Origin: an uncultured Pseudohongiella sp.
GTDB lineage: Bacteria > Pseudomonadota > Gammaproteobacteria > Pseudomonadales > Pseudohongiellaceae
Direction of reading: 5' to 3'
Assembly: GCA_951812965.1 (NCBI GenBank)
Contig: OX638341.1
Location: 124,001 to 188,000 of the forward strand
DNA: 64,000 nucleotides
The first letter of the stretch is position 1. Each line of letters starts with the position of its first letter. The notes beneath the pieces are model-generated. The model did no database searches and was not told the DNA's origin. It was given only the letters and a program-made list of their open reading frames with translations. A program made the position numbers and the translations under genes. Shown here piece by piece: positions 16,070-51,286 of the stretch.

Positions 16070-16123
16070 ACCAATATTGGTCTTACCAATAAAGTGAAAT
16101 TAATGCTACCTTTTGGTTTGCAT
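16070..16123 (+). promoter_or_regulatory. Uronate operator/promoter module before TonB receptor 1
   Basis: Contains the perfect FadR-type dyad TTGGTCTTACCAA (16077-16089), overlapped on its left by the 12-bp palindrome ACCAATATTGGT (16070-16081). Ten bases further on, a 25-bp stretch (16099-16123) matches 21 of 25 bases of the corresponding stretch before TonB receptor 2 and includes TGGTTTGCAT. The receptor ATG is 64 bases downstream. Likely the binding site of the GntR regulator at 8056, by family consensus (TNGTNNNACNA). Confidence 0.7.
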
Positions 16124-16187
16124 CGGTGGTACACTCCCGCCTGTCGTACTGGGCCTTCGCAAAATCAATTTTCGGGAGAGAATTCAA

Positions 16188-19166
16188 ATGAGTGCCAAAC
16201 GTAATACCACCTCCAGTGGTGGAAATTCCAGGTTCAAGCGCAATCCGCTATGTGCCGCGTTGACTTTAGGCGTATCCGCGCTGGCCACAATGCCTGCGAG
16301 TTATGCCCAGGATGCGGAAGTTGAACAAATCATCGTCACCGGTATCCGCTCGTCTCTTGCCAGCGCTCTTGAGCAAAAGCGAGCCGCGGATAACCTGGTC
16401 GAAGTGATTCAGGCGGAAGACATCGGCAAGCTGCCTGACCAGAATCTTGCGGAGGTACTCGAAAACGTTACGGGTATCCAGATTACGCGAACGGCCGGTG
16501 TCGGTACCGGCGTTCAGATTCGCGGCACCAACGCCAACCGGACCGAAATCAACGGCGTGTCAACAGTTGACTCCGGCGCCGGACGCACCGGCATCGATTT
16601 CGAAGACGTTTCCGCGGCTATCATCTCCGCGGTCGAAGTGACCAAGGCGCCTGAAGCAAAAACCATCGAAGGCTCCGTGGGTGGCACGATCAACCTCAGA
16701 ACCATTCGCCCTCTCCAGATTAACGAACGTATCGCGGCTATTCGGGCGCAAGGGGAAAACAGCAGCCTTACCACCGACGGTACTTTCACACCCAGGATAT
16801 CAGGCACCTGGGGCGACAACTGGACTACCGACGCCGGCGATTTCGGCATTGTAGTCAGCGGAAGTTTTACCGAGCAGGACGTAACCGCCTTCCGCCCCCG
16901 CACCGACCGCGACAACAACGTGGCCGCGGGCGGCAGCGCCGCAAGCGCTCAATCCTTCAACTTTCTGCCCATCCAGTTTCTCAACCAGGATTACGACAAT
17001 TTCGAGTATGAAACCACGAACTTTGCCGGCACGATGGAGTGGGCGCCGAGCGAAGAACTGACCTTGTACTTCGATGCGGTCATTAACGATCAGGAGCGCC
17101 GGCAGGAGAGTTCGCGGGTGCAGGGGTCGGGCGTGAGCAGCCTCAGGAACGCCTCGATTCCCGATGCGTTCGAAACGATCAATTTCGGTTCGGTCGACGG
17201 TCGCAACGGCACTCAGAATCTCGGCTCTATCGAAGCGGCGCTTCGGGGTGTGATCGGCGTCGACTTGTCGGTTGACGACGACGATCCGAATCTGCGGTTC
17301 TCGTCGGACACGAATTCGCGCCTGACGGAAAGCCAGATATACAGATGGGGCGCCGACTGGCAAAGAGGCAGGTGGTCAGGACGAGCGGAAATATCGACCT
17401 CCAGGTCCGACTCCACCACTCCGAGTTTCAATACCACGCTCAACTTCATCAATCCGAACGTGCCCCTGGACCCAGGTGGCGCCAACGATAACAGCACACC
17501 TTTCCGCTACGATCTGACGGATGGCACGCTGTCATGGGGCGTCGCGTTCGGTGAACCGGGCGCGCCGACGGTTGCGCAATTGCTCGATCCCGCGAACGTT
17601 GTATTGCGCGATACCAACATCAGCCAGGACATAGCCGAAAGCGGCGAAGACGCTTTGGTGTTCGACTTCACTTACGACCTGGACTGGTCGGGTTTTACCA
17701 CGGTCGATTTTGGCTATCGCAACAGCACTGCGTCGAATTTCAACAACGACATCCGCACCAACCGCGGGTTAAGGAGAATGTCTGATTCTCCCAGAGGAAA
17801 CTTGTTCTCGGAACTTCTCGTGCCGGGCCCTGACAACTTCAATGCGGCCGATGACAGAGCGCTGTACATCGGCAATTTTCTACTCATCAACCCGGAACTC
17901 GTGGCTTCGGACCCGGACGGCGTGCTGGCCACGCTGAATGGCGCAATTAACGCCCACGGTGGTTCCAATTCGATTAACGAGCCCACGTCGAGCGTCGCCG
18001 CATTTTTCGATATCGAAGAAGTAACCGACGCGCTGTACGCGCAAGCGAATTTCGAGAGCGGCATTTTTCGCGGAAATTTCGGAGTGCGCTATCTGGAAAC
18101 CGAGGTCGACTCGACCGGCAATTCGGTAACCAACGGCGTGGCTACTCCGACGACTTCTAGCGGCAGCTACAACTTCCTGTTGCCGCGATTCAATCTGGTT
18201 GCAAACGCAAGCGAGGACGTATTGCTTCGCGCAGGTTGGGGCAAGGATATCAGACGCCCGAGTTTCAGCAGTCTGTCGACTTCCACTACATTCAGCACCA
18301 GCCCCAATCCTCCGGTTTCGATCGGCAACCCGGGTCTGGAGCCTGAAGAGGTAGTTTCGTTCGATCTCTCCGCCGAATGGTATTTCGCGCCTTCTAGCGT
18401 GGTGAGCATCGGCTATTTCCACAAGGAGCGCACCGGCCTGTTCGTTCGCACCCAGGACGATCCGTTCGAGGATCCGGTCACCGGATTCCGCGACGTTACC
18501 GCCCCCTGTGAGCAAGGCGGCATTTACAACCCCATCGCGGACGTCAATGTTTTCGGCGACGCCGGTGGCGTAGGGGTCTGCGTTCCGGCGGCGACGACAG
18601 TCAATGGCGCCGGGGAAACCACCCAGGAAGGATTTGAGCTTGCCTTGCAGTACGATCTTGCACAGTTCGAGGACGAACTGGGTTGGGCTTCCGGATTCGG
18701 TTTTATCGCTAACCTGACCGAGCAGGAATTCACCGGCGGCGATACCTTCCTCAATCCGACCAGCCGCGCCCGGGCAGCATTTGCCTTGATGTCAGCGGGC
18801 GCTACCGACGTTTCGCTACGGGGGCAACTGGTCGACCTTTCCGGGACCTCCTACAACATCACGACGTATTACGAGAAATTCGGCATCTCAGCCAGGATGC
18901 GTTATACGTGGCGTGAGGCGTACCGTTCGACCGATTTCGGCAGCACTTCCAGCTTCCCCTGGGGCTTTCCGGTCGTACAGGAGGATAGAGGGCAGCTCAA
19001 TGCCAGCGTAAGTTATGCCGTGAACGACAATCTGAGCGTCGGTGTCGAAGCCGTCAACCTCACTGAGTCGGATGTCAGGCAATCCTGTGTCAACGGAGGC
19101 GCACTCGTGTGCTTCCAGGGGCTGACGGACCGCCGCATAACCATCGGCGCCACTTACCGCTTGTAA
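16188..19166 (+). CDS. TonB-dependent receptor 1 (Xanthomonas/Caulobacter-type)
   Basis: 992-residue outer-membrane receptor. Signal peptide ends near ALATMPASYAQ. A TonB box-like segment (EQIIVTGIRSSL) precedes the plug, which has IQAEDIGKLPDQNLAEVLEN, GVQIRGT and IEGSVGGTINLRT. The rest is a 22-strand-type barrel ending in the expected aromatic/aliphatic strand (ITIGATYRL). The ATG at 16188 is preceded by GGGAGAG. It is followed by a strong terminator and then uxuA. The EDIGKLPDQN plug motif marks the receptor class used for oligosaccharides in Proteobacteria. Substrate inferred as alginate or another uronate oligomer. Confidence 0.93.
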   Translation: MSAKRNTTSSGGNSRFKRNPLCAALTLGVSALATMPASYAQDAEVEQIIVTGIRSSLASALEQKRAADNLVEVIQAEDIGKLPDQNLAEVLENVTGIQITRTAGVGTGVQIRGTNANRTEINGVSTVDSGAGRTGIDFEDVSAAIISAVEVTKAPEAKTIEGSVGGTINLRTIRPLQINERIAAIRAQGENSSLTTDGTFTPRISGTWGDNWTTDAGDFGIVVSGSFTEQDVTAFRPRTDRDNNVAAGGSAASAQSFNFLPIQFLNQDYDNFEYETTNFAGTMEWAPSEELTLYFDAVINDQERRQESSRVQGSGVSSLRNASIPDAFETINFGSVDGRNGTQNLGSIEAALRGVIGVDLSVDDDDPNLRFSSDTNSRLTESQIYRWGADWQRGRWSGRAEISTSRSDSTTPSFNTTLNFINPNVPLDPGGANDNSTPFRYDLTDGTLSWGVAFGEPGAPTVAQLLDPANVVLRDTNISQDIAESGEDALVFDFTYDLDWSGFTTVDFGYRNSTASNFNNDIRTNRGLRRMSDSPRGNLFSELLVPGPDNFNAADDRALYIGNFLLINPELVASDPDGVLATLNGAINAHGGSNSINEPTSSVAAFFDIEEVTDALYAQANFESGIFRGNFGVRYLETEVDSTGNSVTNGVATPTTSSGSYNFLLPRFNLVANASEDVLLRAGWGKDIRRPSFSSLSTSTTFSTSPNPPVSIGNPGLEPEEVVSFDLSAEWYFAPSSVVSIGYFHKERTGLFVRTQDDPFEDPVTGFRDVTAPCEQGGIYNPIADVNVFGDAGGVGVCVPAATTVNGAGETTQEGFELALQYDLAQFEDELGWASGFGFIANLTEQEFTGGDTFLNPTSRARAAFALMSAGATDVSLRGQLVDLSGTSYNITTYYEKFGISARMRYTWREAYRSTDFGSTSSFPWGFPVVQEDRGQLNASVSYAVNDNLSVGVEAVNLTESDVRQSCVNGGALVCFQGLTDRRITIGATYRL

Positions 19167-19272: not shown

Positions 19273-20487
19273 ATGCGTGAGTCATGGAGATGGTTTGGGC
19301 CGGGCGATCCCGTCACCGTGGATCATATAAGGCAAACCGGCGCGACCGACATCGTCAGTGCACTGCACTCCATTCCCACCGGCGAAGTCTGGTCCGTCGA
19401 CGCAATACGCGAACATCAGGCGCTGATAGAACACACTGAACCCGGCCTTGCGTCACTGAAGTGGAGCGTGGTGGAAAGCATTCCCATACATGAGGACATC
19501 AAGCTGGCGCGGCCGGGCCATCAGGAATACACGAACCGCTGGATCGCATCGATGGAAAATCTGGCGCGCTGCGGAATCAGAACCATCTGCTATAACTTCA
19601 TGTCGGTCATCGACTGGACCCGCACAGACCTTGACTTCAAGCTTCCCAGCGGCGCCTACGCATTACGCTTCGACCAGAAAAAATTTGCCGCTTTCGATCT
19701 TTTCGTTCTTCAGCGAAACGATGCCGGCGCCGAGTACACCAAGGCGGAAATCGCCGAGGCAAGGCAAATCCACGAAGCCATGTCCGCAGCAGAGCGGGAA
19801 GAGCTGACCAGAAACATCATCGCCGGTCTTCCGGGCAAAATGACGGAAAGCTATGGTCTGGACGATTTTCGCGGCATGTTATCCAGATACAGGGATGTGG
19901 ACCACGATACACTGCGCGCGAATCTGTTTGCTTTCCTGTCCCCGGTTCTGCCCAGAGCGGAATCTCTGGGAGTCAAGCTGGCCATCCATCCCGACGATCC
20001 TCCACGCGATTTGCTGGGGCTGCCGCGAGTTATCTGCACCGCGGAAGATTTGGATCTCCTGTTCAATGAACTGCCAAGTCCGTCCAACGGCATGACGCTC
20101 TGCGTGGGCACCTACGGCAGCCGCCCAGACAACGATTTGCCTGCCATGGCCAGGAAGTTCGGCTCACGCATACATTTTTCCCACCTGCGCGGCGTCAGCC
20201 TGGACTCCGGAGAGCAGCGGTCTTTCCATGAGGCCGGACACCTGGATAGCGATGTGGACATGGTTCAGGTGATCAGGGAATTGTTGAACGAGGAGGAGCG
20301 GCGCGCACGGGCGGAATCCGCTGGCGACGACATCTATATCCGCCCCGACCATGGCCATCGCATGATGGACGACATCGACAAGACCGTGAATCCCGGCTAT
20401 TCAAGTATCGGCCGCCTGAAGGGCCTCGCTGAAATTCGGGGCGTAATCCGGACGCTTTCCGCCCGGGAAATGGAGACGCAATCTTAA
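19273..20487 (+). CDS. uxuA: Mannonate dehydratase UxuA
   Basis: 404 residues. UxuA-family TIM-barrel metalloenzyme that converts D-mannonate to 2-keto-3-deoxygluconate. Family landmarks: MRESWRWFGPGDPV at the N-terminus, FMSVIDWTRTDLD, the metal/catalytic segments LAIHPDDPP, LCVGTYGSRPDND, FSHLRGV, and RPDHGHRMMDD near the C-terminus. Normal length. Two bases separate it from the Nramp-like gene, so they are cotranscribed. The window also codes for an unrelated ManD-type enzyme for the same reaction (25941). Confidence 0.95.
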   Translation: MRESWRWFGPGDPVTVDHIRQTGATDIVSALHSIPTGEVWSVDAIREHQALIEHTEPGLASLKWSVVESIPIHEDIKLARPGHQEYTNRWIASMENLARCGIRTICYNFMSVIDWTRTDLDFKLPSGAYALRFDQKKFAAFDLFVLQRNDAGAEYTKAEIAEARQIHEAMSAAEREELTRNIIAGLPGKMTESYGLDDFRGMLSRYRDVDHDTLRANLFAFLSPVLPRAESLGVKLAIHPDDPPRDLLGLPRVICTAEDLDLLFNELPSPSNGMTLCVGTYGSRPDNDLPAMARKFGSRIHFSHLRGVSLDSGEQRSFHEAGHLDSDVDMVQVIRELLNEEERRARAESAGDDIYIRPDHGHRMMDDIDKTVNPGYSSIGRLKGLAEIRGVIRTLSAREMETQS

Positions 20488-20489
20488 GC

Positions 20490-21767
20490 ATGACTCCAAT
20501 GCAGGGCAGAGCGGCTAACGACTCCTTCTCGCAAAAGTTCGCCAGGGCGCTTTCGCTATTTCTTCCGGGAATTTTTTTGCTGGGTTTCAATATCGGTACC
20601 GGTAGCGTTACCGCTATGGCCAAGGCGGGGGCAGAGTATGGCATGAGCCTGTTGTGGACGATCGCCGCGTCGTGCCTCTGCACTTTTTTCATGATAAATC
20701 TCTATGGCCGCTATACGTTGGTTACCGGCGAGACTGCACTGGAGGCTTTTCGAAAACACATCCATCCGCTGGTCGGTATTTTCTTTATTGTGGCTCTGAC
20801 TGCCGGAGTCTGCGGAAGTGTCATGGGAGTGATGGGAATCGTCGCGGAAATCAGTCATGAGTGGTCAAAGTCCATGGTTGCGGGAGGCGTCCCGCCGATC
20901 TATTTCGCGGCCATTTTTGTCGCCCTGGTTTATTTCATATTCTGGAACGGTAAAACACAGTTTTTCGAACGAAGTCTGGCTGTGATCGTTGCCGTCATGT
21001 CAGCCTGTTTTCTGATCAATTTCTTTATCATGATGCCCCCGCCCGTCGATATTGTCAGAGGGTTGATTCCGAGCATCCCCCAGGCCTCAGTCGATATCGG
21101 GCAAGGTCCTCTTCTGGTAATGGCATCGATGGTGGGGACCACCGTGTTTTCCGGCCTGTTTATCATTCGAACCACGCTGGTCAAGGAGGCAGGCTGGTCG
21201 CTGGATGATTATAAAAAGCAACGAAATGACGCCATTGTTTCCGTAGCCCTGATGTTTGTAATCAGTGCGGCGGTCATGGCCGCGGCCGCCGGCGCCTTGT
21301 ACGCGGAGGGCATGGTCTTGTCGCAGGCGCCCCAAATGATCGTACTGCTGGAGCCGCTCACGGGTTCCATGGCTGTTTCGATATTTGCGCTGGGTCTCGT
21401 CGCGGCGGGAGTATCTTCTCAATTTCCCAACGTGCTTATGCTGCCCTGGTTGTTATGTGATTATTCCGGCACGGAACGCGATATGACGCTGGGCAAGTAT
21501 CGAGCGATGGTGTTCCTGATTTCCATGCTCGGTCTGGTAGTGCCGATTTTCGGAGCCAGGCCAGTGTTCGTGATGATCGTTTCGCAAGCCTTCAATGCTA
21601 TCGTCCTCCCCATTACGGTCGCCTGCATTTTTTATCTCTGCAACCGAAAAGATTTAATGGGAATGCACAAGAATATCTGGATCGGCAATGGCATTCTTGG
21701 GGCGATTTTACTGTTCTCGATCTTCACGGCTTTTGTCGGAATCAAGGGTGTTTGGCAATTACTATGA
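20490..21767 (+). CDS. Nramp-fold transporter lacking metal-binding motifs (copy 1)
   Basis: 425 residues, about 11 hydrophobic segments. Overall architecture is that of Nramp/SLC11 proteins: LFLPGIFLLGFNIGTGS in TM1 and TLVTGETALEAFRKH before TM3. Canonical Nramp metal transporters carry DPGN in TM1 and MPH in TM6. Here TM1 reads GFNIGTGSVTAM (residues 32-43) and TM6 reads GTTVFSG (216-222), so both ion-binding motifs are absent. It lies 2 bases after uxuA and just before a hydratase gene. A role in uptake of a sugar acid rather than a divalent metal is my inference. A paralogue sits at 37443-38690. Confidence 0.82.
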   Translation: MTPMQGRAANDSFSQKFARALSLFLPGIFLLGFNIGTGSVTAMAKAGAEYGMSLLWTIAASCLCTFFMINLYGRYTLVTGETALEAFRKHIHPLVGIFFIVALTAGVCGSVMGVMGIVAEISHEWSKSMVAGGVPPIYFAAIFVALVYFIFWNGKTQFFERSLAVIVAVMSACFLINFFIMMPPPVDIVRGLIPSIPQASVDIGQGPLLVMASMVGTTVFSGLFIIRTTLVKEAGWSLDDYKKQRNDAIVSVALMFVISAAVMAAAAGALYAEGMVLSQAPQMIVLLEPLTGSMAVSIFALGLVAAGVSSQFPNVLMLPWLLCDYSGTERDMTLGKYRAMVFLISMLGLVVPIFGARPVFVMIVSQAFNAIVLPITVACIFYLCNRKDLMGMHKNIWIGNGILGAILLFSIFTAFVGIKGVWQLL

Positions 21768-21813
21768 AGAGCAGGGCAAACAATCAGCGCTACATCAGAT
21801 TCGAGGTCGTGAA

Positions 21814-22665
21814 ATGGAGAATAAAGTGGCTATAGCAAACGCTGCAGATGTACGTACGTCATTGTCCGTACCGGACGAAGAAGTATCCAGGCGCCTGGTC
21901 GCGGCGCGGTTGAGCGCCAGACCGATGGCGGATTTTCCCGGCCGCCTGCCGACGACTCTGGAGCAGGCATACGCCGTTCAGTCGGCTTCAGCAAACCGTT
22001 GGCCCGACAAAGTCGCAGCATGGAAAATCGGGAAGTTGTCGGCGCCCGACCGGGAGCGCTTCAAGGCCGAAAGACTTGCCGGCCCGATATTCAAGTCGAC
22101 CATCCGCACCGCCAGTCCCGGTGCATGCGAGGCGATGGCGATCTATGAGGGTGGATTCGCCGCTATTGAAGCTGAATATGCTCTGGAACTGGGTTGTGCC
22201 GTGCTGCCTTCGGATAAAAACTACTCGGACGAAGAATTGGCCGACCTCGTCCGTGCAGTGTATGGCGTGGCGGAAATCGCCAGCAGTCCGATGGCTCTTG
22301 TAAATGAACTTGGCGCAATGTCGGTGATATCCGATTTCGGCGCAAACGCCGGCCTCGTTGTCGGCCCGAAGATTTCCGGGTGGCGCTCGTTGGGGCCGGA
22401 ATCCCTGTTCGCCAGCGTAGCCGTGGACGATTTCACGGTTGGCGAGGCCAACCCCGAACCCATCGAACGAAATGCGCTGCAGGCATTGAGGTTTCTGATT
22501 GGCCTCAGCGCCAGCCGGGGCATTGCGCTGGCCGAAGGCGCCCTGGTCTCGACAGGCGCGCTCACCGGGGTTCACGAAGTGCAGGCGCGTTCAACGGCGC
22601 ACGTTGGTTTCGGATCGTTTGGCTCGTTCGAAGTGAAGTTTCAACCGGCGGCGCCGAAGCAATAG
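21814..22665 (+). CDS. 2-keto-4-pentenoate hydratase / fumarylacetoacetase-fold protein
   Basis: 283 residues from the ATG at 21814 (a longer frame starts inside the transporter gene). Fold indicators are QAYAVQSA, WKIGKLSA, YEGGFAAIEAEYALELG (metal-binding Glu cluster), VADLVRAVYGVAEIASSP-like helix and GVHEVQARSTAHVGFGSFGS at the C-terminus. MhpD-type enzymes add water to unsaturated 2-keto acids. In a uronate operon it could act on a keto-deoxy sugar acid. It follows the Nramp-like gene by 46 bases. The exact reaction is unknown. Confidence 0.75.
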   Translation: MENKVAIANAADVRTSLSVPDEEVSRRLVAARLSARPMADFPGRLPTTLEQAYAVQSASANRWPDKVAAWKIGKLSAPDRERFKAERLAGPIFKSTIRTASPGACEAMAIYEGGFAAIEAEYALELGCAVLPSDKNYSDEELADLVRAVYGVAEIASSPMALVNELGAMSVISDFGANAGLVVGPKISGWRSLGPESLFASVAVDDFTVGEANPEPIERNALQALRFLIGLSASRGIALAEGALVSTGALTGVHEVQARSTAHVGFGSFGSFEVKFQPAAPKQ

Positions 22666-22792: not shown

Positions 22793-22861
22793 GTCGTTAA
22801 GATGTGGATTACAATATTGGCCGTACGCACTGCAATCTGCCAAACTGGGGAGAGAAACCTA

Positions 22862-25765
22862 ATGAAATTCAAACTTACTTTGGTTGCGTCGGCTGTGGGC
22901 GCGGCTGTGCAGGCGCTTGCACCGCAGGCTTTTGCGCAAGATATTGAAGAGATCGTCACCATCGGCATTCGCGGCTCCCTGCAGGCGGCTGCAGACTTAA
23001 AACGTAATGATGCCCGGATCATTGACGCAATCGCTGCAGAAGATATCGGCAAATTACCAGACAACAACATTGCTGAAGCACTTCAGCGTGTTACTGGCGT
23101 TTCGATTAACCGTGAATATGGTGTGGGAAATGAAGTATCTATTCGCGGTCTTAATAATAACCGTGTTGAGATTAACGGTCGTTCCACGCTTGGCGATAGC
23201 CGTAACGGCATAAGCCTGGACGATATGCCTTCTGCTTTCCTCTCGGCGGTTGAAGTCGTCAAGTCTCCAACACCAGAAATGATTGAAGGCGCTTTGGGTG
23301 GCACTGTCAACATGAAAACCCTTAGACCCATCGATTTAGGCGAGCAAATTGTTTCGGTCAGTCTGGACATGGAATATGCGGACAAGACAGAGAATTCTGC
23401 GCCCATTTTAAACGCAACATATGGCAACAACTGGGAGCTCGATAATGGCGGCGCTTTCGGCGTTATGGCATCTCTTTCCTATCAGGACAGAAGTTTACGA
23501 CAAGACACATTCCAGCAGGACTTGAGAGTTCAGGATGGCTTCGACATCAACAATGATGGAGTAATCAATCTTACTGATGAAGCTCAAAATACGCCAAGCG
23601 GTAATTACGTTATTTCGCGGGAGCACAAATATGAGCCCTGGGTTGAACACAGAGAGCGTACGGCTGCGAACCTTAGTTTTCAGTGGGCGCCAAATGAAAG
23701 AGGCAATCTGTATACCGATTTGAACTTTACAGATCGTTCCGGTGGTGAAGAGGCTTACTCGGTACTGATGGCCGGTGGTTCTGCTACCAACGCTCTTGGT
23801 ACTGCTTTTGAAGATGCTAATGGCCAACTCAGCGATTATGTTTTAGAAGGTGCTTTTATCCTTCCGAAAACATGGAGTGAATTTCGGGAAACCAAGTCAT
23901 ACTCACACGCCTTTGGCGGAGAATTTGATCTAACGGAAAAAATGCAAGTTAGTTTTGAATTTGCAACAGCTGAGTCTGATCAAACTGAGCCTAAGTCAGA
24001 ATTTAACTGGCGCGCACACGATCAGGCAGCAGAAGCTCTTAACCCGGCAGGTCAAAACCGACATTTCGTCGACGCCGTTATCGACGTAAGTAACCACAAT
24101 TCGGTGCCTGGTGTGGATTACTTGAACGATGCGAATCCCTTTTTGGAGATGGACAGACTTGCACTTCGTGAGTTCAGGCATTTGACCGATGATGTTTTCA
24201 ATGCTGAAGATGCTTACCGTGTTGATTTTGAGTACAACAACCCAGTTGATCTGGAGTGGTTTACTGCATTTAAAGCGGGTTTTCGCGCAACAGATAGAGA
24301 TTACGAAAGATCTTCCAAAGAGTTTCGCTCGGCCAATTTGCACCAAGATCTGACTACAGCGGACGGCAGCGAATACGTCGTATGGACTATGACAGAATTT
24401 GATGCACTCTTTCCCGGTACGCTCGTGAACCCATACCAGCCTGGCGACCTGTTCGATCAGGCAGGTTATTCTTCCGCAAACCAGACAGCACCATTTGTTC
24501 TTTACGATGCGGCCCGATTGAGTGGTGATCTAGAAGGAACTTTTGACATTGTCAAGCAATTACTAGCAGGTACGAATAGGGAAGTTTCTGGTAGTTTAGC
24601 CAGTAATTTGACGGCTCGGGACTCGGCATATACCAAGATCGGCGAAGAAACTGCAGCCGCCTATTTGCAAGCTGACTTGGATTTTGATCGCGTTAGAATT
24701 GTATTAGGTGGTCGCTATGTCGAAACCGACGTCACTTCATCTGCTTTTCAGGACGGTGTTTTGGTGACCGACACTGAAACTTATGCTGATTTCCTGCCTA
24801 GTATCAATGCGTCGGTAGATTTGACAGATAACACTATCCTGCGCGCGACTGGCGCCAAGGTGATGCGTCGCGCCAACTTCGGAGATTTGAGCCCTGCGTA
24901 CAACTTTAACTCTGATGTTATTTTGGCAACTCGCGGTAATCCAGGGTTGGAGCCTTTCCGTGCGGCGCAATTTGATTTCGGGGTGGAGCACTATTGGGAC
25001 GGCAACATGGTATCGGCTACTGTGTTCTATAAGGATGTAGCTTCATTCTTGAAGGAATCCATTTACTGTGCCTATTTCCCTGGTGGTGTTTCAGGTCAAA
25101 ACCACAATGCAGGCGCATTTGATCAGATCTGTATCCTACCCGCGGGTGTTCGAGCTGATTCAGACATATATACCGACACTGAAGACGAAGCTGAGTTTCT
25201 CGCCTTTGTGGCAGACGGGCGTAATGGCGTGAAGACGACTACGTCCACTAATGGCTCTAATGGTACGATTCAGGGCGTTGAATTAGGCGCTGTTTACAAC
25301 TTTGATTACCTGCCCGGCGCTTGGTCCGGTTTAGGAATCAACGCTAATTTTACTCTCTCGCAAAGCGAAGACCCGAATGGTGTAGCTCTCGAAGATATCT
25401 CTGAGACATCCTATAACCTTCAACTGTTCTGGGAATACGAAAATTGGGGTGCTCGTTTAGCCTGGACATCTCGTGAAATGTTCCTGGATGACACAGCACA
25501 AAAGCGTACTGAGCATATTGGTGCGCTAGTGGCCAGTAATACTATTGATCTGGATAATGATCCCACGCAGGGTAATAGCTTCCGTGATGGGATCGATCAA
25601 CTGGACGTTTCTGGCAGCTGGCAGGTAAATGATTCGCTGACTATTGTTGCTAGCATTACGAACCTGACTGGTGAGCATTTGATAAATTCAACTATCAATG
25701 GTATTGCCTGGCAGGTTCGAGAAAGTGATCGCAGGTTTAGCTTAGGAGCACGTTACTCTTTTTAA
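22862..25765 (+). CDS. TonB-dependent receptor 2
   Basis: 967 residues from the ATG at 22862, which is preceded by GGGGAGAG and starts a normal signal peptide (LVASAVGAAVQALAPQAFAQ). The plug has EEIVTIGIRGSL, AAEDIGKLPDNNIAEALQ, EVSIRGLNNNRVEING and IEGALGGTVNMKT. The barrel ends in RRFSLGARYSF with the C-terminal Phe needed for BAM recognition. Base composition differs from its neighbours: it is clearly AT-richer, with many AAT, TTT, GTT and TTA codons. It therefore looks like a recent import into the locus. A terminator follows. The ligand is inferred to be a uronate oligomer. Confidence 0.93.
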   Translation: MKFKLTLVASAVGAAVQALAPQAFAQDIEEIVTIGIRGSLQAAADLKRNDARIIDAIAAEDIGKLPDNNIAEALQRVTGVSINREYGVGNEVSIRGLNNNRVEINGRSTLGDSRNGISLDDMPSAFLSAVEVVKSPTPEMIEGALGGTVNMKTLRPIDLGEQIVSVSLDMEYADKTENSAPILNATYGNNWELDNGGAFGVMASLSYQDRSLRQDTFQQDLRVQDGFDINNDGVINLTDEAQNTPSGNYVISREHKYEPWVEHRERTAANLSFQWAPNERGNLYTDLNFTDRSGGEEAYSVLMAGGSATNALGTAFEDANGQLSDYVLEGAFILPKTWSEFRETKSYSHAFGGEFDLTEKMQVSFEFATAESDQTEPKSEFNWRAHDQAAEALNPAGQNRHFVDAVIDVSNHNSVPGVDYLNDANPFLEMDRLALREFRHLTDDVFNAEDAYRVDFEYNNPVDLEWFTAFKAGFRATDRDYERSSKEFRSANLHQDLTTADGSEYVVWTMTEFDALFPGTLVNPYQPGDLFDQAGYSSANQTAPFVLYDAARLSGDLEGTFDIVKQLLAGTNREVSGSLASNLTARDSAYTKIGEETAAAYLQADLDFDRVRIVLGGRYVETDVTSSAFQDGVLVTDTETYADFLPSINASVDLTDNTILRATGAKVMRRANFGDLSPAYNFNSDVILATRGNPGLEPFRAAQFDFGVEHYWDGNMVSATVFYKDVASFLKESIYCAYFPGGVSGQNHNAGAFDQICILPAGVRADSDIYTDTEDEAEFLAFVADGRNGVKTTTSTNGSNGTIQGVELGAVYNFDYLPGAWSGLGINANFTLSQSEDPNGVALEDISETSYNLQLFWEYENWGARLAWTSREMFLDDTAQKRTEHIGALVASNTIDLDNDPTQGNSFRDGIDQLDVSGSWQVNDSLTIVASITNLTGEHLINSTINGIAWQVRESDRRFSLGARYSF

Positions 25766-25940: not shown

Positions 25941-27158
25941 GTGAAAATCACGCAGATTAAGGTCATCGTCTGCTGCCCCGGCCGGAATTTCGTGACGATA
26001 AAAATTATTACCGATAGCGGCCTGTTCGGGCTCGGGGACGCCACACTCAACGGTAGGGAAATGGCTGTGGCCGCCTATCTAGAGGAGCATGCGGCGCCCT
26101 GTCTCGTAGGGCGCGATCCCCAGGAAATCGAGGATATATGGCAGTACCTGTACAGGGGTGTCTACTGGCGAACAGGTGCGGTCACGATGACGGCAATAGG
26201 CGGTATCGACATGGCGCTCTGGGATATCAAGGGCAAGGCAGCGGGCATGCCGCTGTACCAGCTATTGGGCGGGAGGAGTCGGACTGGAGTCACTCTGTAC
26301 GCACATGCCAGCGGTAAGAATACCGAGGAAACACTGGGTGAGGCCAAGAAACTGGTTGAAGCGGGATTCAAGGCGATCCGTATTCAGTCCGCGATTCCCG
26401 GCCTGGAAGCCACCTATGGCGTGATAGGCGACATGAAGGATTATTATGAGATGCAGGGAAACCGGCCTCTTCCTCCCGAGGAAGAGTGGTCAACCCAAAA
26501 GTATTTCGGCATGGTGGAAGAATTGTTTCGCGAAGCGCGACACCATCTAGGAAGTGATGTGCATCTGCTTCATGATGTTCATAATCGGCTGACACCCATC
26601 GAATCGGCCAGGTTGGGCAAGCTGCTGGAGAAATACAATCTTCTGTTTCTGGAAGATGCGTCCATCGCAGAAAATCAGGAAAGCTATAAGGTAATTCGCC
26701 AACACACGACCACTCCGCTTGCTATCGGTGAGACCTATAACACGATTTGGGACTGCAAAGAGCTGGTTCAGAACCAACTGATCGATTACATCAGAATGGC
26801 AGCTACCCATGCCGGCGGTATTACTGCAATGCGGCGCATTGCTGACTTCGCAGGAATCTACAGCGTCAAAATCGCCCCTCATGGTGCACCGGATCTGTCA
26901 CCAATCTGCGTCGCGGCACATCTTCACTTGAACACCTGGGCGCCCAATTTTGGCATTCAGGAGTTTGTTGGCCTCGGTAGTGAGCAATGCCGGCAAATTT
27001 TCAAACAGGATTTCCAAATCAAAAATGGCATGGCCCATGTCAGCGAGGCGCCGGGCCTTGGCATAGACTTTGATGAGGAGGCCGCAAAAGAATATCCCTA
27101 CAAACGATCTTATCTTCCGGTTAGCAGGCTGGAAGATGGTACGCTGTGGCATTGGTAG
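25941..27158 (+). CDS. ManD-type D-mannonate/D-gluconate dehydratase (enolase superfamily)
   Basis: 405 residues, starting with GTG. It has the ManD N-terminal capping domain (CCPGRNFVTIKI, IEDIWQYLYRG, GIDMALWDIKGK) and a barrel with Arg147, Tyr168/169, metal ligands Asp212, Glu238 and Glu264, and catalytic His214 and His314. The C-terminus YKRSYLPVSRLEDGTLWHW is typical of ManD. ManD enzymes make KDG from mannonate, and low-activity subgroups also take gluconate. Which applies here cannot be judged. It precedes a Gfo/Idh oxidoreductase by 25 bases. It is not related in sequence to UxuA at 19273. Confidence 0.9.
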   Translation: MKITQIKVIVCCPGRNFVTIKIITDSGLFGLGDATLNGREMAVAAYLEEHAAPCLVGRDPQEIEDIWQYLYRGVYWRTGAVTMTAIGGIDMALWDIKGKAAGMPLYQLLGGRSRTGVTLYAHASGKNTEETLGEAKKLVEAGFKAIRIQSAIPGLEATYGVIGDMKDYYEMQGNRPLPPEEEWSTQKYFGMVEELFREARHHLGSDVHLLHDVHNRLTPIESARLGKLLEKYNLLFLEDASIAENQESYKVIRQHTTTPLAIGETYNTIWDCKELVQNQLIDYIRMAATHAGGITAMRRIADFAGIYSVKIAPHGAPDLSPICVAAHLHLNTWAPNFGIQEFVGLGSEQCRQIFKQDFQIKNGMAHVSEAPGLGIDFDEEAAKEYPYKRSYLPVSRLEDGTLWHW

Positions 27159-27183
27159 GCGGCGACTGGATTACGAGAACGAT

Positions 27184-28326
27184 TTGAATAGTAAAAGACT
27201 GAAAGTGCTGGTTCACGGAACTGGATTTGCCGGGCAGGGCCACACCAGAGGATTCAGATTAGCGGGCGCGGAAGTGATCGGCATGGTGGGAAGAACAGAA
27301 CCCATCGTAATGGAAGTGGCCGAAAAAATGGGCATTCCCTACTGCGGTATTGATTGGAATCAGGCACTAAGGGATTGTCAGCCGGATATTGTGTCCATTG
27401 CTACTCCGGGTGGCGCGCATGCAAAGCCCATCAAGCAGGCCATTGCGCAGGGCTGTCATGTGTTTTGCGACAAACCATTGACCGACAGTGGCGAGACCGC
27501 GAAGGAGCTTTATGAGATTGCGATAGCGAAAGGCGTCAAGACAGCTTTCTCCGCCAGCTTCAGATATGAGCCACATGTCATGCACGCCAAAAAGCTTGTC
27601 GCCGAAGGTGCAATTGGTGAACCGCTGGAAGTCGAGTGCATTTCGCATTTCAATCTTGAGCGGGATATTCCTTTTGGCTGGTCTCACTGCAAGGAAGAGG
27701 GCGGCGGCCGACTGAACAACAATTTCACGCACAAGCTATCGATTGTGACCTCGGTGGTGGGCGAGAAGATCCTCTCGATCATGGCTGAGGTGCGTAATGA
27801 TCTGGGCAAGGCCCCCATTGTCGAGGGTATGCACAACTTCAAGACCAGACGCGAGCATATCCCCAAAGATCTGGATGATCCCTTCCTGAAATGGCGTGAG
27901 TCCAATGTGGAGTGGACATACACCGTTCTGGCGCGAATGGAAAGCGAATACGCCAGCAAACCCGTTTCAGTGTTGTTCAAACATGGTGGGCTCAATCCCC
28001 GCTTCAACGAAGACCACATTGTTTTCTATGGCAGTAAAGGGGCCATCTATATCAAGGGCCACTATGGTACCGGACCACTCTTCCTCTATGGAAAGAACAA
28101 GGAATGGCTCGAAATCGCGCTTCCGGAGGAAATTGCCGCAAGTGTGCCCGCCATCGAGGATAGCACCGAGCGAAACTGGAGCTACCTGATCCGGAAACTG
28201 GTTCGGGACGTACACGGCGAGACTGTGGCATCCTACCAGACATTCAAGGAAGGAAGTCTGTATCAGCAGCTAATCGACATCATTCGGCAGAACGGAAACT
28301 GGGTCGATGTTCGTCACCTGCAGTAG
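27184..28326 (+). CDS. Gfo/Idh/MocA-family NAD(P)-dependent oxidoreductase
   Basis: 380 residues from a proposed TTG start at 27184, right before the Rossmann strand RLKVLVHGTGFAGQGHTRGF. The open frame reaches back into manD, but that part does not look like protein. The catalytic Lys is in CDKPLT (usual EKP). The C-terminal beta-sheet domain follows. Such enzymes oxidise or reduce sugars and sugar acids. Located between manD and a sodium symporter, it probably interconverts a uronate-derived acid. The substrate is unknown. Confidence 0.82.
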   Translation: MNSKRLKVLVHGTGFAGQGHTRGFRLAGAEVIGMVGRTEPIVMEVAEKMGIPYCGIDWNQALRDCQPDIVSIATPGGAHAKPIKQAIAQGCHVFCDKPLTDSGETAKELYEIAIAKGVKTAFSASFRYEPHVMHAKKLVAEGAIGEPLEVECISHFNLERDIPFGWSHCKEEGGGRLNNNFTHKLSIVTSVVGEKILSIMAEVRNDLGKAPIVEGMHNFKTRREHIPKDLDDPFLKWRESNVEWTYTVLARMESEYASKPVSVLFKHGGLNPRFNEDHIVFYGSKGAIYIKGHYGTGPLFLYGKNKEWLEIALPEEIAASVPAIEDSTERNWSYLIRKLVRDVHGETVASYQTFKEGSLYQQLIDIIRQNGNWVDVRHLQ

Positions 28327-28390
28327 ATACCAGTCCAGTCGAAACGATAATGCTCACGAGAATGGAGCTTGAATTACGCTGCCAAAGCTC

Positions 28391-30160
28391 ATGATTTATG
28401 AGTATGTAGTAATCGCCGGCTATTTCCTGCTTGTCCTGGGAATCGGACTTTCGTTCAGGAAAATGGGCAAAAGGTCCACTAGCGATTACTTTCGTGGTGG
28501 CGGTCGCATGCTCTGGTGGATGGTCGGGTCAACGGCCTTCATGATGCAGTTTTCCGCCTGGACCTTTACGGGGGCGGCGGGCAAGGCCTTCTCAGATGGG
28601 TTTGCAGTCTGCCTCGTATTTCTTGCCAATACGTTTTCCTACTTTTGCGGTTGGGCATACTTTGCGCAGCGCTTTCGCCAGTTGCGCGTGGACACGCCTA
28701 CCGAAGCGATCAGGCGTCGATTCGGTCATCAGAATGAGCTTTTTTTCTCCTGGGCGCTGATCGTCTTCAGCCTGATCAACGCCGGAATATGGCTCAATGC
28801 GCTGGGCGTCTTTGCCAGCGCTGCATTCGGTGCCGATATCAGCATGACCATCCTTGTCACAGGGCTGACCGTGGTCTTTGTATCTGTACTTGCTGGAGCC
28901 TGGGGTGTCGTGGCATCCGATCTTGTGCAAACTCTGGTGGTGGCCGTGCTCTCCGTGGCTTGTGCGATAGTGGCGCTCGTCGAGGTCGGAGGCCCGGTCG
29001 AGCTGGTTGCCAATTTCCCCTCCGGCTTCTTGATGGGGCCGGATATGAACTACGGTCTGCTGCTGGTCGGAACCTTTGTGTTCTTTCTTGCCAAACAGCT
29101 CATTACCATTATGAACCTCCATGACTCCTTCCGCTTCTTGACGGCCAGGGATTCCGCCAATGCGCGCAAGGCAGCCTTGCTGGCGATGTGTTTGATGGGC
29201 GTGGGCAGCATCATCTGGTTCATACCCCCCTGGGCTTCGGCCATTCTTTACCCTGAAGCAGCCTCCGCTTACCCCGAACTGGGAAACAAGGCGGGCGATG
29301 CCATTTACCTTGTCTTCGCCCGCAACGCGATGCCGATCGGCACGGTCGGTATGTTGTTTGCCGGGCTGTTTGCGGCGTCCATGTCATCCATGGATTCTGC
29401 GCTGAACAAGAATGCTGGGATCTTTGTACGAAGTGTGTACCAGCCGTTTCTGGCTAAAAGGGGAAAACAGACGAATGACAGGAAGCTGTTAAGACTGAGC
29501 ATGATGCTCAGCCTGTTCAGCGGCGTTCTGGTTATTTTCATAGCCTCATTCTTCACATCACTGCAAGAACTTAGCCTGTTTGATCTGATGATGTCAGTAT
29601 CCACGATGATTCAGGTGCCGATTCTAATTCCTTTGATCGTTGGTCTCTTCGTAAGAAAAACCCCGCCCTGGGCACCATGGACGACAGTTTTGCTGGGTTT
29701 GTTCGTATCCTGGTTCATGACCGATGTGCTTACACCGCAAGTGTTTGCAGGCTGGATCGGCCTGCCGGAACTGACCTCGAGGGAAGCAGTCGATATGAAT
29801 CTTATGCTCACACTGGCGGCGCACATCTTTATTACTGCCGGTTTTTTCTGCCTTACAGCATATTTTTACAGAGAAGAAACCGATAGTGAGAAAACTCGGC
29901 TGGAGAGCTTCTTCAAGGATCTGGAAACCCCAGTGATCGCCGATGATGCCCAAGATGAATACGATTGCCGGCAAAGGAACAAGCTGGGTTCCATGGTCAT
30001 GATCATGGGCACAGGAATTTTGTTGATGGCGCTAATTCCCAACCCTCTCTCGGGGCGGATGATTTTTGTGTATTGCGCGCTGGTAATATTGAGCTTGGGC
30101 TATTTGTTAAAGGGAAGTATGCGACTGGAAGCCCGTGGCGACAATTCGCTATTGGAATGA
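28391..30160 (+). CDS. Sodium:solute symporter (SSS family), probable alginate-oligomer/uronate uptake
   Basis: 589 residues, 14-15 hydrophobic segments, with SSS landmarks DYFRGGGRMLWWMVGSTAFM near the N-terminus, the long TM region WGVVASDLVQTLVVAVLSVA and the sodium-binding FAASMSSMDSALNKNAG. An additional charged C-terminal segment (about residues 495-530) precedes one or two further helices. It lies directly upstream of a PL7 alginate lyase. SSS proteins next to alginate lyases (ToaA/ToaB type) import unsaturated uronates or short oligomers; that assignment is by context. Confidence 0.9.
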   Translation: MIYEYVVIAGYFLLVLGIGLSFRKMGKRSTSDYFRGGGRMLWWMVGSTAFMMQFSAWTFTGAAGKAFSDGFAVCLVFLANTFSYFCGWAYFAQRFRQLRVDTPTEAIRRRFGHQNELFFSWALIVFSLINAGIWLNALGVFASAAFGADISMTILVTGLTVVFVSVLAGAWGVVASDLVQTLVVAVLSVACAIVALVEVGGPVELVANFPSGFLMGPDMNYGLLLVGTFVFFLAKQLITIMNLHDSFRFLTARDSANARKAALLAMCLMGVGSIIWFIPPWASAILYPEAASAYPELGNKAGDAIYLVFARNAMPIGTVGMLFAGLFAASMSSMDSALNKNAGIFVRSVYQPFLAKRGKQTNDRKLLRLSMMLSLFSGVLVIFIASFFTSLQELSLFDLMMSVSTMIQVPILIPLIVGLFVRKTPPWAPWTTVLLGLFVSWFMTDVLTPQVFAGWIGLPELTSREAVDMNLMLTLAAHIFITAGFFCLTAYFYREETDSEKTRLESFFKDLETPVIADDAQDEYDCRQRNKLGSMVMIMGTGILLMALIPNPLSGRMIFVYCALVILSLGYLLKGSMRLEARGDNSLLE

Positions 30161-30177: not shown

Positions 30178-31332
30178 ATGTTGAATATCAATAAAGTAAC
30201 GTTACTGATGATCGCCGTTATTACCTGCCTGGTGAGCCCAAGCTGCGCGAAACGTGATGCGCAGGCTCGGAGCACCGGTGAGAACGATCCGCCAGCGCAA
30301 GGCAACAGTGTTGAACTTGATTCATCAACACCGAGAATTGTGGAGGACGACGTGGAACGTTTTCCGGCGAGCGAGTTCGATCTGAGTAACTGGTCAATAA
30401 CCCTGCCTTTAGATCTCGATGGCGATGAAGTGGCCGATACGATCCGCGTCGCGGAAATCCAGACCTACTCCCATCCCGAGTTTTTCTATCTCGATGAGAA
30501 TGATCGCATGGTGTTTACCAGCCCAAACAAGGCGATTACGTCTCCCAACTCCACCAATACACGTAGTGAACTGCGATATGAGAGCCGGGGATCGGACAGT
30601 TCGATATCCACTTCATCGCCTAAAAATAACTTTGCGTTGGCGTCTCATGAAGATGCAGATCAATTTGCGTCCATAGGAAGCAGGATGGAGGCGACGCTGC
30701 AAGTTGATCAGGTATCCCTGCATGCAGGTCACCCCGAAAAACCTCCCGCCTACTCGGTGGTGATAGGGCAGATTCACGCGCTTCGCCGGGATGAAAAAAT
30801 GGACGGCTTCGGTTATGGCAACGAGCCGCTCAAGATTTCCTACAAGAAGTGGCCTGACCACGAAACCGGCTCCGTTTTTTGGGCTTATGAAAGAAACCTG
30901 CCTACGGATGACCCGAATCGGACAGACATTGCCTACGTTGTGTGGGGAAACAACTGGGATGACCCAACCGATCCCGGCGAACGCGGAATCGCATTGGGTG
31001 AGGTGTTCCGCTACACGGTCAATGTGCACGAAGACACGCTGCATCTGATCTTCGAGAGTGAAACCAAAGGTACGGTTCGACATCAGATCAATCTCGCTGA
31101 CAATGTCGATGCACATGGAAGCGTCGACACCGCCGACCATCCTCATGGCTATGCTCAAGAATCCCTTTACTTCAAAGCGGGCGCCTACAATCAATGCAGT
31201 ACATCAGAGGCCGATAGCTGGCGATATCCCACATGCCCAGGCACGGGCGACTGGGAATCGGATCAAGCCAATGGAGATTTCGTCCGGGCAAGATTCCATG
31301 GTTTAGTCGTGAGCGAATCCACGCCCATGTAG
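30178..31332 (+). CDS. Alginate lyase, PL7 family, lipoprotein
   Basis: 384 residues from the ATG at 30178, 17 bases after the symporter stop. The signal peptide ends at a lipobox-like LVSPSC (Cys23), followed by a Ser/Pro-rich linker to about residue 60. The three PL7 active-site motifs are all present: RSELR (129-133), QIH (198-200) and YFKAGAYNQ (331-339). Ile in QIH is generally linked to cleavage at guluronate-containing sites. Predicted to be anchored in the outer membrane or its periplasmic face and to cut alginate by beta-elimination. Confidence 0.93.
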   Translation: MLNINKVTLLMIAVITCLVSPSCAKRDAQARSTGENDPPAQGNSVELDSSTPRIVEDDVERFPASEFDLSNWSITLPLDLDGDEVADTIRVAEIQTYSHPEFFYLDENDRMVFTSPNKAITSPNSTNTRSELRYESRGSDSSISTSSPKNNFALASHEDADQFASIGSRMEATLQVDQVSLHAGHPEKPPAYSVVIGQIHALRRDEKMDGFGYGNEPLKISYKKWPDHETGSVFWAYERNLPTDDPNRTDIAYVVWGNNWDDPTDPGERGIALGEVFRYTVNVHEDTLHLIFESETKGTVRHQINLADNVDAHGSVDTADHPHGYAQESLYFKAGAYNQCSTSEADSWRYPTCPGTGDWESDQANGDFVRARFHGLVVSESTPM

Positions 31333-31455
31333 ACCAACAGATAGTTGGCGAACAGGAATCTACGAATTTTGAGACACTCTCTCTGGATCGCTCCGTCTGG
31401 CGTCCACGAATTTTCGCTAGAATTACCATTCTTGTTCGACGCGTGGAGAACAACC

Positions 31456-32718
31456 ATGAAAAACGTTTCACCGATCGTAATTCTGGTCACTCAGCTACTT
31501 GCGCTGGCGCCTGTTGCGACAGCCGCTACGCTTGACGAAAAGATCGACGAGACGCTCGCCTTCGCGCAAGTGCAGTTGGAACAACACGCCCAACGAAGCG
31601 GCCCCATGCGGTTCACCTGTTATACGGAACCGTCGGGCAAGTGGGAAGACAGAGGCTTGGAAGGGTGGTGCTGCGGCTTTTCGGCGGGCCTGATGTGGAT
31701 GATGTACAGCTACACCGGGGACGAGAAGTGGGCAAACTACGGGCGGGATTGGAACGACTCGATTCGGCCGAGAGCGACGGCAACGGACAACGACATCGGA
31801 TTCCAGGTGTACAACGCTTTCGGGTACGCGCTTCGGTACGCTTCGACCGCGCTGTCGGAAGAAGAGATTCGAGACTACGAAGGTGTCATCCGTTGGGCCA
31901 GCGAGACGTTTACGGCGCAGCGGTACAATGCTCACGTTGGCGGATTTCGCGCGTGGCCGGCGTTGTTTTTCAAGCCCTACGAGGGCGAGTTTGAGATCAA
32001 CAGCGACATGGTGATGAACATGGAGCTGCCGATTTACGTTGCGACGACGACCGGGGACATGAATCTCGTTGACAAAGTCACGCGCCATGCGGAGACGACA
32101 TGGCGGCACAACGTGTACAAGCCAGGCGACGCTCAATGGGAACGGCCCTCCAGCGAGGAATATGTTCCGCGCAAACATGGAAGTCACTGGCATGTAGTCG
32201 GTTTTGATCCTGAAACAGGATCGGTGATCAACAAGCGGACCGAGCAGGGGGACAGGACGGAGAGCACGTGGTCGCGAGGTCAGGCCTGGTTAATCTACGG
32301 TTACACCATGCTATATCGATACACCGGCTATGAGACCATGTTGCAGCGGGCCGAGTTCAGTTTCGACTACTTCATCTCCGCCCTGACAGCGCAATCCGAA
32401 GACCATATCCCTTACTCGGATTTCGACGCTCCGGTCAATGAGTCGCATCCGCTGGACACAGCGGCCGCGGCGATCGTCGCGTCGGCGGCGATTGAGCTGT
32501 ATCAGTTCACGAAGGAAGAGAAATACCTGAACGCCACGGAGAACATGCTCAACGATTTGACTTCGCCGCCGTACCTGGCCACCAATACGTCGTTCGAATC
32601 GGTGTTGACGCGAGGGTCCCACAGTTACGACAGGCACTCAGAGGCTGGAACCATTTTCGGCGACTTCTACCTCGTTGAAGCGATGTTGCGGTACAAAGCG
32701 CTCAAGGCTGGAGAATAA
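31456..32718 (+). CDS. GH88-type unsaturated uronyl hydrolase
   Basis: 420 residues from the ATG at 31456, with GTGGAG before it. Sec signal peptide ends near VATA|ATL. The (alpha/alpha)6 family pattern is visible: DNDIGFQVY (Asp113) and NSDMVMNMELPIY (Asp184) fit the two catalytic aspartates, and TWSRGQAWLIYGYTMLY is the GH88 active-site helix. GH88 removes unsaturated glucuronyl residues left by lyases on glucuronate-containing polymers; it is not needed for pure alginate. The 123-bp leader separates it from PL7. It converges with edd. Confidence 0.87.
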   Translation: MKNVSPIVILVTQLLALAPVATAATLDEKIDETLAFAQVQLEQHAQRSGPMRFTCYTEPSGKWEDRGLEGWCCGFSAGLMWMMYSYTGDEKWANYGRDWNDSIRPRATATDNDIGFQVYNAFGYALRYASTALSEEEIRDYEGVIRWASETFTAQRYNAHVGGFRAWPALFFKPYEGEFEINSDMVMNMELPIYVATTTGDMNLVDKVTRHAETTWRHNVYKPGDAQWERPSSEEYVPRKHGSHWHVVGFDPETGSVINKRTEQGDRTESTWSRGQAWLIYGYTMLYRYTGYETMLQRAEFSFDYFISALTAQSEDHIPYSDFDAPVNESHPLDTAAAAIVASAAIELYQFTKEEKYLNATENMLNDLTSPPYLATNTSFESVLTRGSHSYDRHSEAGTIFGDFYLVEAMLRYKALKAGE

Positions 32719-41138: not shown

Positions 41139-41185
41139 TACTGTGCTTCCGATTGACACTGATCTGGAATAGTGGCAATGTCGGA

Positions 41186-41198
41186 TTGGAGTTACCGA
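41186..41198 (+). promoter_or_regulatory. Degenerate uronate operator before TonB receptor 3
   Basis: TTGGAGTTACCGA matches TTGGTNNNACCAA at 8 of 10 fixed positions and lies 33 bases upstream of the receptor ATG, closer than at receptors 1 and 2. The adjoining GTAATACC is also seen in the receptor 2 module. A weak-affinity site is possible. Confidence 0.35.
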
Positions 41199-41231
41199 TT
41201 TGTAATACCAAACACTCCCGGGAGGCCCAAC

Positions 41232-49542: not shown

Positions 49543-49706
49543 CCTTCGGCGCCCGATGCATCGGGCGCCGAAGGTGGCGGTGGACGGGCCGTAGGCATGC
49601 TGGTCTTAGAGACCGTGGGCGAGCGTGGCCGCCACCGTCTTTCCCGACATCCTGAACGGTTGCGTGGGCTACGAGCCCGAATGACAAGGTGAGGAGGACG
49701 GAAAAG
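49543..49706 (+). ncRNA. Candidate bridge (seek) RNA region of IS110 element 1
   Basis: A perfect 32-bp palindrome (49543-49574: 14-base arms around TGCA) is followed by an 8-bp long-range stem, GGTGGCGG (49573-49580) with CCGCCACC (49629-49636). The stem encloses a GGTCT-TAG-AGACC hairpin (49602-49614). IS110-group elements are known to encode a guide RNA in the non-coding region before the transposase. Element 2 has the same order of structures with different sequence. Expression and boundaries are unproven. The rest of 49380-49706 has no gene. Confidence 0.4.
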
Positions 49707-51277: not shown

Positions 51278-51286
51278 ATCCACCAC

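Follow-up and report, generated by a model that had tools for sequence, protein, structure and literature searches.

An Nramp-related transporter clade without the family's metal-binding motifs, encoded beside uronate and alginate genes in Pseudohongiella and other bacteria

The locus and its Nramp-like genes

Here we describe an Nramp-like transporter gene, P0001, in a 64,000-nucleotide stretch of DNA (the window) from an uncultured Pseudohongiella sp. (GenBank assembly GCA_951812965.1, contig OX638341.1, positions 124,001 to 188,000 of the forward strand). Two Nramp-like genes, P0001 and P0002, lie in the window, an alginate/uronate region that also contains at least three TonB-dependent receptors and alginate lyases of the PL7 (one), PL6 (two) and PL17 (one) types (Table 1). 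A search of the window's genome with Pfam PF01566 (Nramp) returned two matches at E 0.001 or better, both inside the window. An initial annotation, made from the sequence alone, had noted that P0001 lies 2 bases after a mannonate dehydratase gene and that its product lacks the metal-binding motifs of Nramp transporters. The spacing is exact, with uxuA on the same strand and the ATG of P0001 at 20490, and profile searches identify both products.

P0001 is well above the PF01566 cut-off of 29.8 bits and covers positions 1-355 of the 357 in the profile. A phmmer alignment with DraNramp (6c3i) bears out the motif replacements: D-P-G-N of DraNramp pairs with G36-T37-G38-S39, at the end of GFNIGTGS (residues 32-39) in transmembrane helix (TM) 1, M-P-H pairs with F220-S221-G222, at the end of GTTVFSG (residues 216-222) in TM6, and the next conserved His pairs with R227. 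The top rows of a comparison of the AlphaFold model with the PDB are Nramp-family proteins, and the predicted structure is thus an Nramp fold without the metal motifs. Among NCBIfam models, the broad NF037982, named 'Nramp family divalent metal transporter', accepts both P0001 (72 bits, cut-off 50) and P0002; P0001 falls below the MntH model NF001923 (84 of 430 bits) and TIGR01197 (35 of 272.5 bits), and the MntH and TIGR01197 models reject P0002 as well. The NRMT signature DxxG / TxxA/T is absent from P0001, which reads G36-T-G-S39 and T217-T-V-F220. Two further candidates were discarded: a Pfam FixQ match to P0001 is noise (15 bits, cut-off 29), and the Na2-like serine pair S309, S310 in TM8 is not distinctive, as DraNramp also aligns Ser there.

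Table 1. Coordinates, strands and supporting evidence for features of the window
Feature	Coordinates	Strand	Evidence
TonB-dependent receptor upstream of uxuA	16113..19166	+	Pfam TonB_dep_Rec and Plug
uxuA, mannonate dehydratase	19273..20487	+	Pfam UxuA, 376 bits; TIGR00695, 482 bits (cut-off 199.6)
Nramp-like transporter P0001, subclade A, 425 aa	20490..21767	+	Pfam Nramp, 194 bits; AlphaFold pLDDT 89.8; predicted Nramp fold
TM1 motif G36-T37-G38-S39 replacing DPGN, at TM1 helix break	20595..20606	+	Alignment; model break at residues 35-36
R227 codon, invariant Arg in TM6b (His in metal Nramps)	21168..21170	+	Arg in 93/93 GTGS rows
Small enzyme, weak HpaH-type hydratase match, next in same direction	21781..22665	+	NCBIfam HpaH, 19 bits; no Pfam match
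TonB-dependent receptor	22802..25765	+	Pfam
ManD, D-mannonate dehydratase, enolase superfamily	25941..27158	+	NCBIfam NF043051, 673 bits (cut-off 550)
Gfo/Idh/MocA oxidoreductase (candidate mannuronate reductase)	27178..28326	+	Pfam
SSS-family symporter	28391..30160	+	Pfam SSF, 106 bits
PL7-type alginate lyase	30184..31332	+	Pfam Alginate_lyase2, 187 bits
GH88/GH76-like protein (weak)	31345..32718	+	Weak match
Edd/IlvD-family dehydratase	32760..34610	-	Profile match
PL17-type oligoalginate lyase, 4-base overlap with P0002 gene	35185..37446	-	Pfam Alginate_lyase + Hepar_II_III_C; nearest NCBIfam olalg_lyase, 680 bits (under cut-off 1400)
Second Nramp-like transporter P0002, subclade B, 415 aa, motif GYTVGTGSVT	37443..38690	-	Pfam Nramp, 197.5 bits
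PL6-type alginate lyase	38856..41096	+	Pfam Chondroitinas_B, 380 bits
TonB-dependent receptor	41172..44348	+	Pfam
PL6-type alginate lyase	44361..46556	+	Pfam Chondroitinas_B, 388 bits

A GTGS-arginine clade and its gene neighbourhoods

Once loci repeating the window (L001-L003, L033, L040), exact duplicates and all stretches no longer than 300 aa are removed, the family alignment holds 191 Nramp-family rows: 93 rows carry GTGS (92 non-redundant), 33 DPGN, 32 GPGT and 33 other motifs. The aligned metal ligands are missing from every GTGS row. The replacement is not a matter of chance: position 227 is Arg in 93/93 GTGS rows (92/92 non-redundant) and His in 33/33 DPGN rows. GPGT rows have His (30) or Gln (2). 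The acidic TM3 columns conserved in DPGN rows, which belong to the proton path, have no Asp or Glu counterpart in the GTGS rows, the alignment being gapped there. In a tree of 112 of the 191 rows, built by a quick method without bootstrap, a single branch with SH-aLRT 100 separates the GTGS rows from all others; DPGN, GPGT and DPSG cluster together at SH-aLRT 98, and the deep order is unsure owing to several long branches. P0001 and P0002 are thus both members of one well-supported GTGS-Arg clade of Nramp-related proteins. Of the 82 subclade-A rows (one a duplicate), 79 have F220, 80 have S221 and 79 have G222, and every one has Q311 and N314; in subclade B (10/10 rows) positions 220-222 are Ala-rich, position 311 is V or I and position 314 is C or I. 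P0002 lies 16 kb from P0001 in the same clade, on the other side of this division, and its aligned TM6 and TM8 residues differ.

A scan for relatives in one genome per species, based on alignment A1, gave at least 597 pattern matches and at least 585 confirmed relatives, of which the best 80 by similarity to P0001 (55-80% identity) were surveyed. According to their records these 80 loci comprise 44 from Pseudomonadota, 26 from Bacteroidota, three from Fidelibacterota (Neomarinimicrobiota), two from Planctomycetota, one each from Kiritimatiellota, Lentisphaerota, Calditrichota and Raymondiibacteriota, and one without a phylum, making eight phyla in all; many are metagenome-assembled genomes. 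Such similarity across phyla suggests that the clade has spread horizontally. In the window's class, 7/369 genomes match P0002 at E 1e-20, three of them, including its own genome, at more than 35% identity.

Genes for UxuA, UxuB-like, PMI-like and AGE-like enzymes, PL6, PL7 and PL17 lyases and a KdgF-like cupin were scored as partners within 10 kb of each transporter gene. Labels were assigned by phmmer and verified on representatives by Pfam or NCBIfam; the names KdgF and KdgK rest on the cupin and PfkB families and on context. The survey included L107, a partial match, and G093, G310 and G482, apparently identical to L051, L057 and L042, were each counted once. Of the nine subclade-B stretches, three (L152-L154) overlap with loci of subclade A (L113, L112 and L117). 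The GTGS copy L160, which is divergent and has ManD and SSS genes nearby, is in no counted group. Two control sets were used, namely 20 of the 21 other Nramp matches in the genomes of 30 loci chosen by hand from the 80, and 20 loci, out of 30, that come from other genomes and all hold a DPGN Nramp; 15 of these 20 were centred by position, since the query had missed the gene there.

At least one partner gene was present at 63/80 subclade-A loci and 8/9 subclade-B stretches, against 1/20 same-genome controls (a PL7 gene in L161) and 0/20 DPGN controls, so that GTGSVT homologues do lie beside uronate and alginate genes. UxuA was near 46/80 loci (35 within 300 bp) versus 0/40 controls, and was absent from 7/9 subclade-B stretches; the 35 close copies stand upstream (14), downstream (14) or divergently (7), with at least four changes of arrangement among 34 linked rows. 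Fisher values computed alongside take no account of common descent. Alginate lyases occur in 30/80 loci. The initial annotation had named a position mainly beside metal-homeostasis genes as evidence that would count against its proposal. In a Pfam scan of immediate neighbours (138 of 142 flanking proteins of 110-900 aa, four long ones being dropped), UxuA was found in 35, and no metal-homeostasis family was among the 25 commonest of 92 families. Rfam likewise gave no metal riboswitch, including the magnesium type, in the window and 11 loci.

Several other genes of the window recur elsewhere. Relatives of the TonB-dependent receptor upstream of uxuA adjoin UxuA in L251 (as two open reading frame (ORF) pieces) and L253, and the HpaH-like enzyme directly 3' of P0001 has relatives near UxuA-Nramp pairs in L042 (apparently the same as L255) and L050. 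The module of ManD, Gfo/Idh/MocA oxidoreductase and SSS symporter (25941-30160, plus strand) recurs beside the UxuA-Nramp pair in L061 and L068, and its SSS and Gfo/Idh/MocA genes alone in L080 and L254; it is possibly a parallel uronate route using another carrier. At 49689-52632, a tmRNA gene (50920-51277) is grouped with a HipA gene and with an ORF that by eye resembles an IS110-type transposase, an arrangement like that at a mobile-element insertion site.

Candidate substrate and competing explanations

The initial annotation had proposed a branch of the Nramp fold that moves sugar acids or another organic solute, and the controlled, clade-wide context supports this. Fold, clade membership, residue replacement and gene linkage are observed, and substrate, pocket, direction and coupling ion are inferred; we put at about 0.6 the probability that P0001 is a carrier of organic sugar acids with D-mannuronate as the leading substrate. 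P0001 would be an Nramp-related, LeuT-fold carrier of the inner membrane for import of a sugar acid of D-manno configuration, with alginate-derived D-mannuronate the most likely one, and UxuA would then feed the 2-keto-3-deoxygluconate (KDG) pathway. Putative binding would occur at the TM1 and TM6 breaks, with GTGS in place of the metal-binding D and N and with R227 of TM6b pairing with the substrate carboxylate. P0002, which stands beside PL17 and PL6 lyases and differs in its TM6 and TM8 residues, may carry the unsaturated product DEH.

The partner enzymes are consistent with this proposal. UxuB-like genes are accompanied by UxuA in 12/12 loci, and in 11/12 also by a ManA-like or AGE-like isomerase. 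Because two families of D-manno isomerase join a fructuronate reductase and a mannonate dehydratase, a route from mannuronate through fructuronate and mannonate to KDG fits these loci. Some relatives would thus encode the whole route nearby, with a ManA-like or mannose-isomerase-like enzyme converting D-mannuronate to D-fructuronate, a UxuB-like enzyme producing D-mannonate and UxuA yielding KDG. The enzyme labels refer to divergent proteins: UxuB-like partners score 249-312 bits to fructuronate reductase (cut-off 603, three proteins), PMI-like partners 81-106 bits to ManA (cut-off 116.2, three proteins) and an AGE-like partner 205 bits to D-mannose isomerase (cut-off 600, one protein). A genome of the same genus has genes for a TonB-dependent receptor, UxuA, PMI, PL17, UxuB and Nramp in a row, and another has a TonB-dependent receptor (two ORF pieces), UxuA, Nramp and PL17. 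The divergent ManA-like family, below the ManA cut-off and tied to UxuA/UxuB and the Nramp-like gene (L045, L079, L092 and others), is a candidate D-mannuronate isomerase.

A number of observations weigh against D-mannuronate as the substrate. In the window's genome Mannitol_dh (UxuB), AGE, PMI type I and UxaC gave no match; each of these families was detected in 2 or 7 of the 14 control genomes. A PMI-like partner protein used as query also found no match there, in a search that had no positive control. A search for PMI with PF20511 was empty in the same genome; the families listed for the divergent PMI-like partners do not include PF20511. Alginate lyases convert nearly all residues into DEH and leave little saturated mannuronate, making its supply a puzzle. 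Sixteen of the 80 loci have none of the partner genes (six of these are on pieces under 16 kb), and one of the nine subclade-B stretches, L159, has ManD only. Since the scan patterns hold GTGSVT or the preceding TM1 stretch, the uniformity of GTGS among the 80 loci is partly by construction; members from whole-protein searches, which are free of this constraint, are also GTGS. Relatives in the wider family are reported, in excerpts of the papers concerned, to move metals (YcsG, Mn, PMC10448178; EleNRMT, Mg, PMC8806188). Six of the 80 loci, finally, carry mannosidase-type genes, with a ManA-like gene adjoining the Nramp-like gene in five and UxuA and alginate lyases in none, and the TM1, TM6 and TM8 residues are unchanged in the five inspected mannosidase loci, save for one FAG in place of FSG.

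For the window's genome, the simplest route is direct reduction of mannuronate to mannonate, with the Gfo/Idh/MocA gene as the candidate enzyme. This reaction is EC 1.1.1.131, and direct reduction of D-mannuronate to D-mannonate is possible because D-mannitol is symmetric. Glucuronate through UxaC was rejected as the main route, given the lack of a UxaC match in this genome (7/14 control genomes being positive); import of glucuronate as such may still occur.

The mannosidase-type loci bear on the strongest competitor, in which the neutral sugar D-mannose is imported, UxuA serves an oxidative route that turns mannose via mannonate into KDG, and fructose is the product of the ManA-like and AGE-like partners. 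These partners are indeed nearest to ManA and D-mannose isomerase, respectively, and if all loci share the same substrate then mannose becomes possible. We nevertheless regard mannose as improbable, because the invariant TM6b Arg suits a carboxylate, because UxuB-like genes and alginate lyases are foreign to mannose use, and because mannosidase-type genes and lyases occur together in 0/80 loci. In L054, L066, L071, L086 and L089 the pair of Nramp-like and ManA-like genes lies beside the mannosidase-type genes, mostly with sulfatases and without UxuA; the mannosidase label is based on an NCBIfam match to GH92 in L071 (584 bits, cut-off 250) and a weak GH38-like match in L066, and the remaining GH38-like labels and the GH99-like label were given by eye.

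Slightly less probable again is import of the aldonate D-mannonate itself, the direct substrate of UxuA. Mannonate would suit the position of UxuA as the commonest direct partner (35/80 within 300 bp) and the failure to recognise, in the window's genome, any enzyme acting before mannonate, but the isomerase and UxuB-like genes found together in 11/80 loci would then be superfluous and free mannonate is not known as a product of alginate. UxuA is metal-dependent, and a divalent metal importer supplying Mn2+ or Fe2+ to such enzymes would account for the shared Pfam family and fold and for the name of NF037982. A metal role, in keeping with an excerpt reporting that the relative YcsG raises cell Mn (PMC10448178), is nonetheless very unlikely, as the aligned ligands are gone in all GTGS rows and a cation-repelling Arg is fixed, UxuA is missing from the six mannosidase-type loci and from 7/9 subclade-B stretches, neither metal riboswitches (window and 11 loci) nor metal families (25 commonest neighbour families) were found, and DPGN Nramps lack linkage to UxuA (0/20).

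Relation to known carriers and implications

Canonical Slc11/Nramp/MntH proteins such as DraNramp and BfraNramp differ from P0001, which lacks DPGN and MPH, has Arg for the second TM6 His, offers no counterpart to their TM3 acids (in a gapped alignment) and has uronate genes as neighbours. The literature below is cited from excerpts of each source. A paraphyletic group of Nramp-related proteins that have neither DPGN nor MPH is recognised (PMC12873925); the Nramp fold and this group are already known, and what is new here is the proposed substrate class. NRMTs such as EleNRMT are Mg2+ carriers (PMC8806188, PMC4072509) with the signature DxxG-TxxA/T (PMC8806188), and some follow magnesium riboswitches (PMC4072509); they keep the TM1 Asp, whereas P0001 reads GxxS and TxxF.

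PxpT of C. glutamicum, which is needed for growth on 5-oxoproline, although its authors could not rule out metal transport (PMC13274462), is a partial precedent for an Nramp relative that handles an organic acid. PxpT and its homologue YcsG, argued to be a Mn importer (PMC10448178), resemble P0001 in that their Nramp-family genes stand with genes for catabolic enzymes, and PxpT is needed for the use of an organic acid (PMC13274462). P0001 is not encoded with pxpABC, as no LamB_YcsF, CT_A_B or CT_C_D was found among the scanned neighbours in the window, and the pxp-linked homologues seen here (at least 4/20 controls) belong to another clade, with GPGT/VPY and His; PxpT and YcsG themselves were compared by description, and YcsG was absent from 16 matching PDB sequences.

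Further associations were seen among other Nramp homologues. GPGT Nramps lie beside LamB_YcsF (PxpA-type, confirmed by Pfam) in L162, L164, L167 and L168, whose genomes have a GTGS-type copy as well, and the full set of three pxp-type genes is confirmed for L162. In L172, L175 and L176, GPGT Nramps lie beside a class I/II aminotransferase of MalY/PatB appearance, its family assigned by Pfam in L172 and L175 and by eye in L176, possibly indicating a further organic substrate. In L169 and L170, GPGS-type Nramps from sulfatase-bearing regions adjoin one and the same gene pair, with products of about 338 and 356 aa; a Pfam search (E 1e-6) with one protein of this pair returned no family.

ExuT and other MFS hexuronate carriers are alike in the proposed job, hexuronate import, and belong to a fold and family different from Nramp. 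ExuT is named in a review of hexuronate use that, in the excerpt, covers alginate only via DEH (PMC6353982). A supplementary-figure legend for Alteromonas sp. 76-1 lists 'Nramp, metal-ion transporter' in the alginolytic systems AS1/AS2 (PMC6431674), a similar alginate setting under a metal label; the excerpt does not discuss this protein, which is known here from the legend. In the open-licence literature we found no paper proposing a uronate carrier in the Nramp family or linking Nramp to uronate use. The initial annotation knew of no description of a uronate transporter with this fold.

More tentatively, and with slightly less than even odds, we propose that the Nramp fold includes a large family of hexuronate importers that has spread horizontally, in which subclade A would carry D-mannuronate and subclade B DEH, with the TM6b Arg as carboxylate anchor. 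Metal transport would then be one specialty of a fold in wide use for organic acids, and the name 'divalent metal transporter' would be wrong for hundreds of proteins encoded in marine polysaccharide loci.

If D-mannuronate is indeed the substrate of P0001, a family treated as metal importers has a sugar-acid branch, and many of the at least 585 related loci would need renaming. The same reading predicts a ManA-like or AGE-like enzyme acting on mannuronate, and bears on the open dispute over whether PxpT and YcsG serve 5-oxoproline or Mn2+. It would also provide a clean test of one fold switching between cations and organic anions, and would close a gap in the account of alginate-monomer uptake by marine bacteria.
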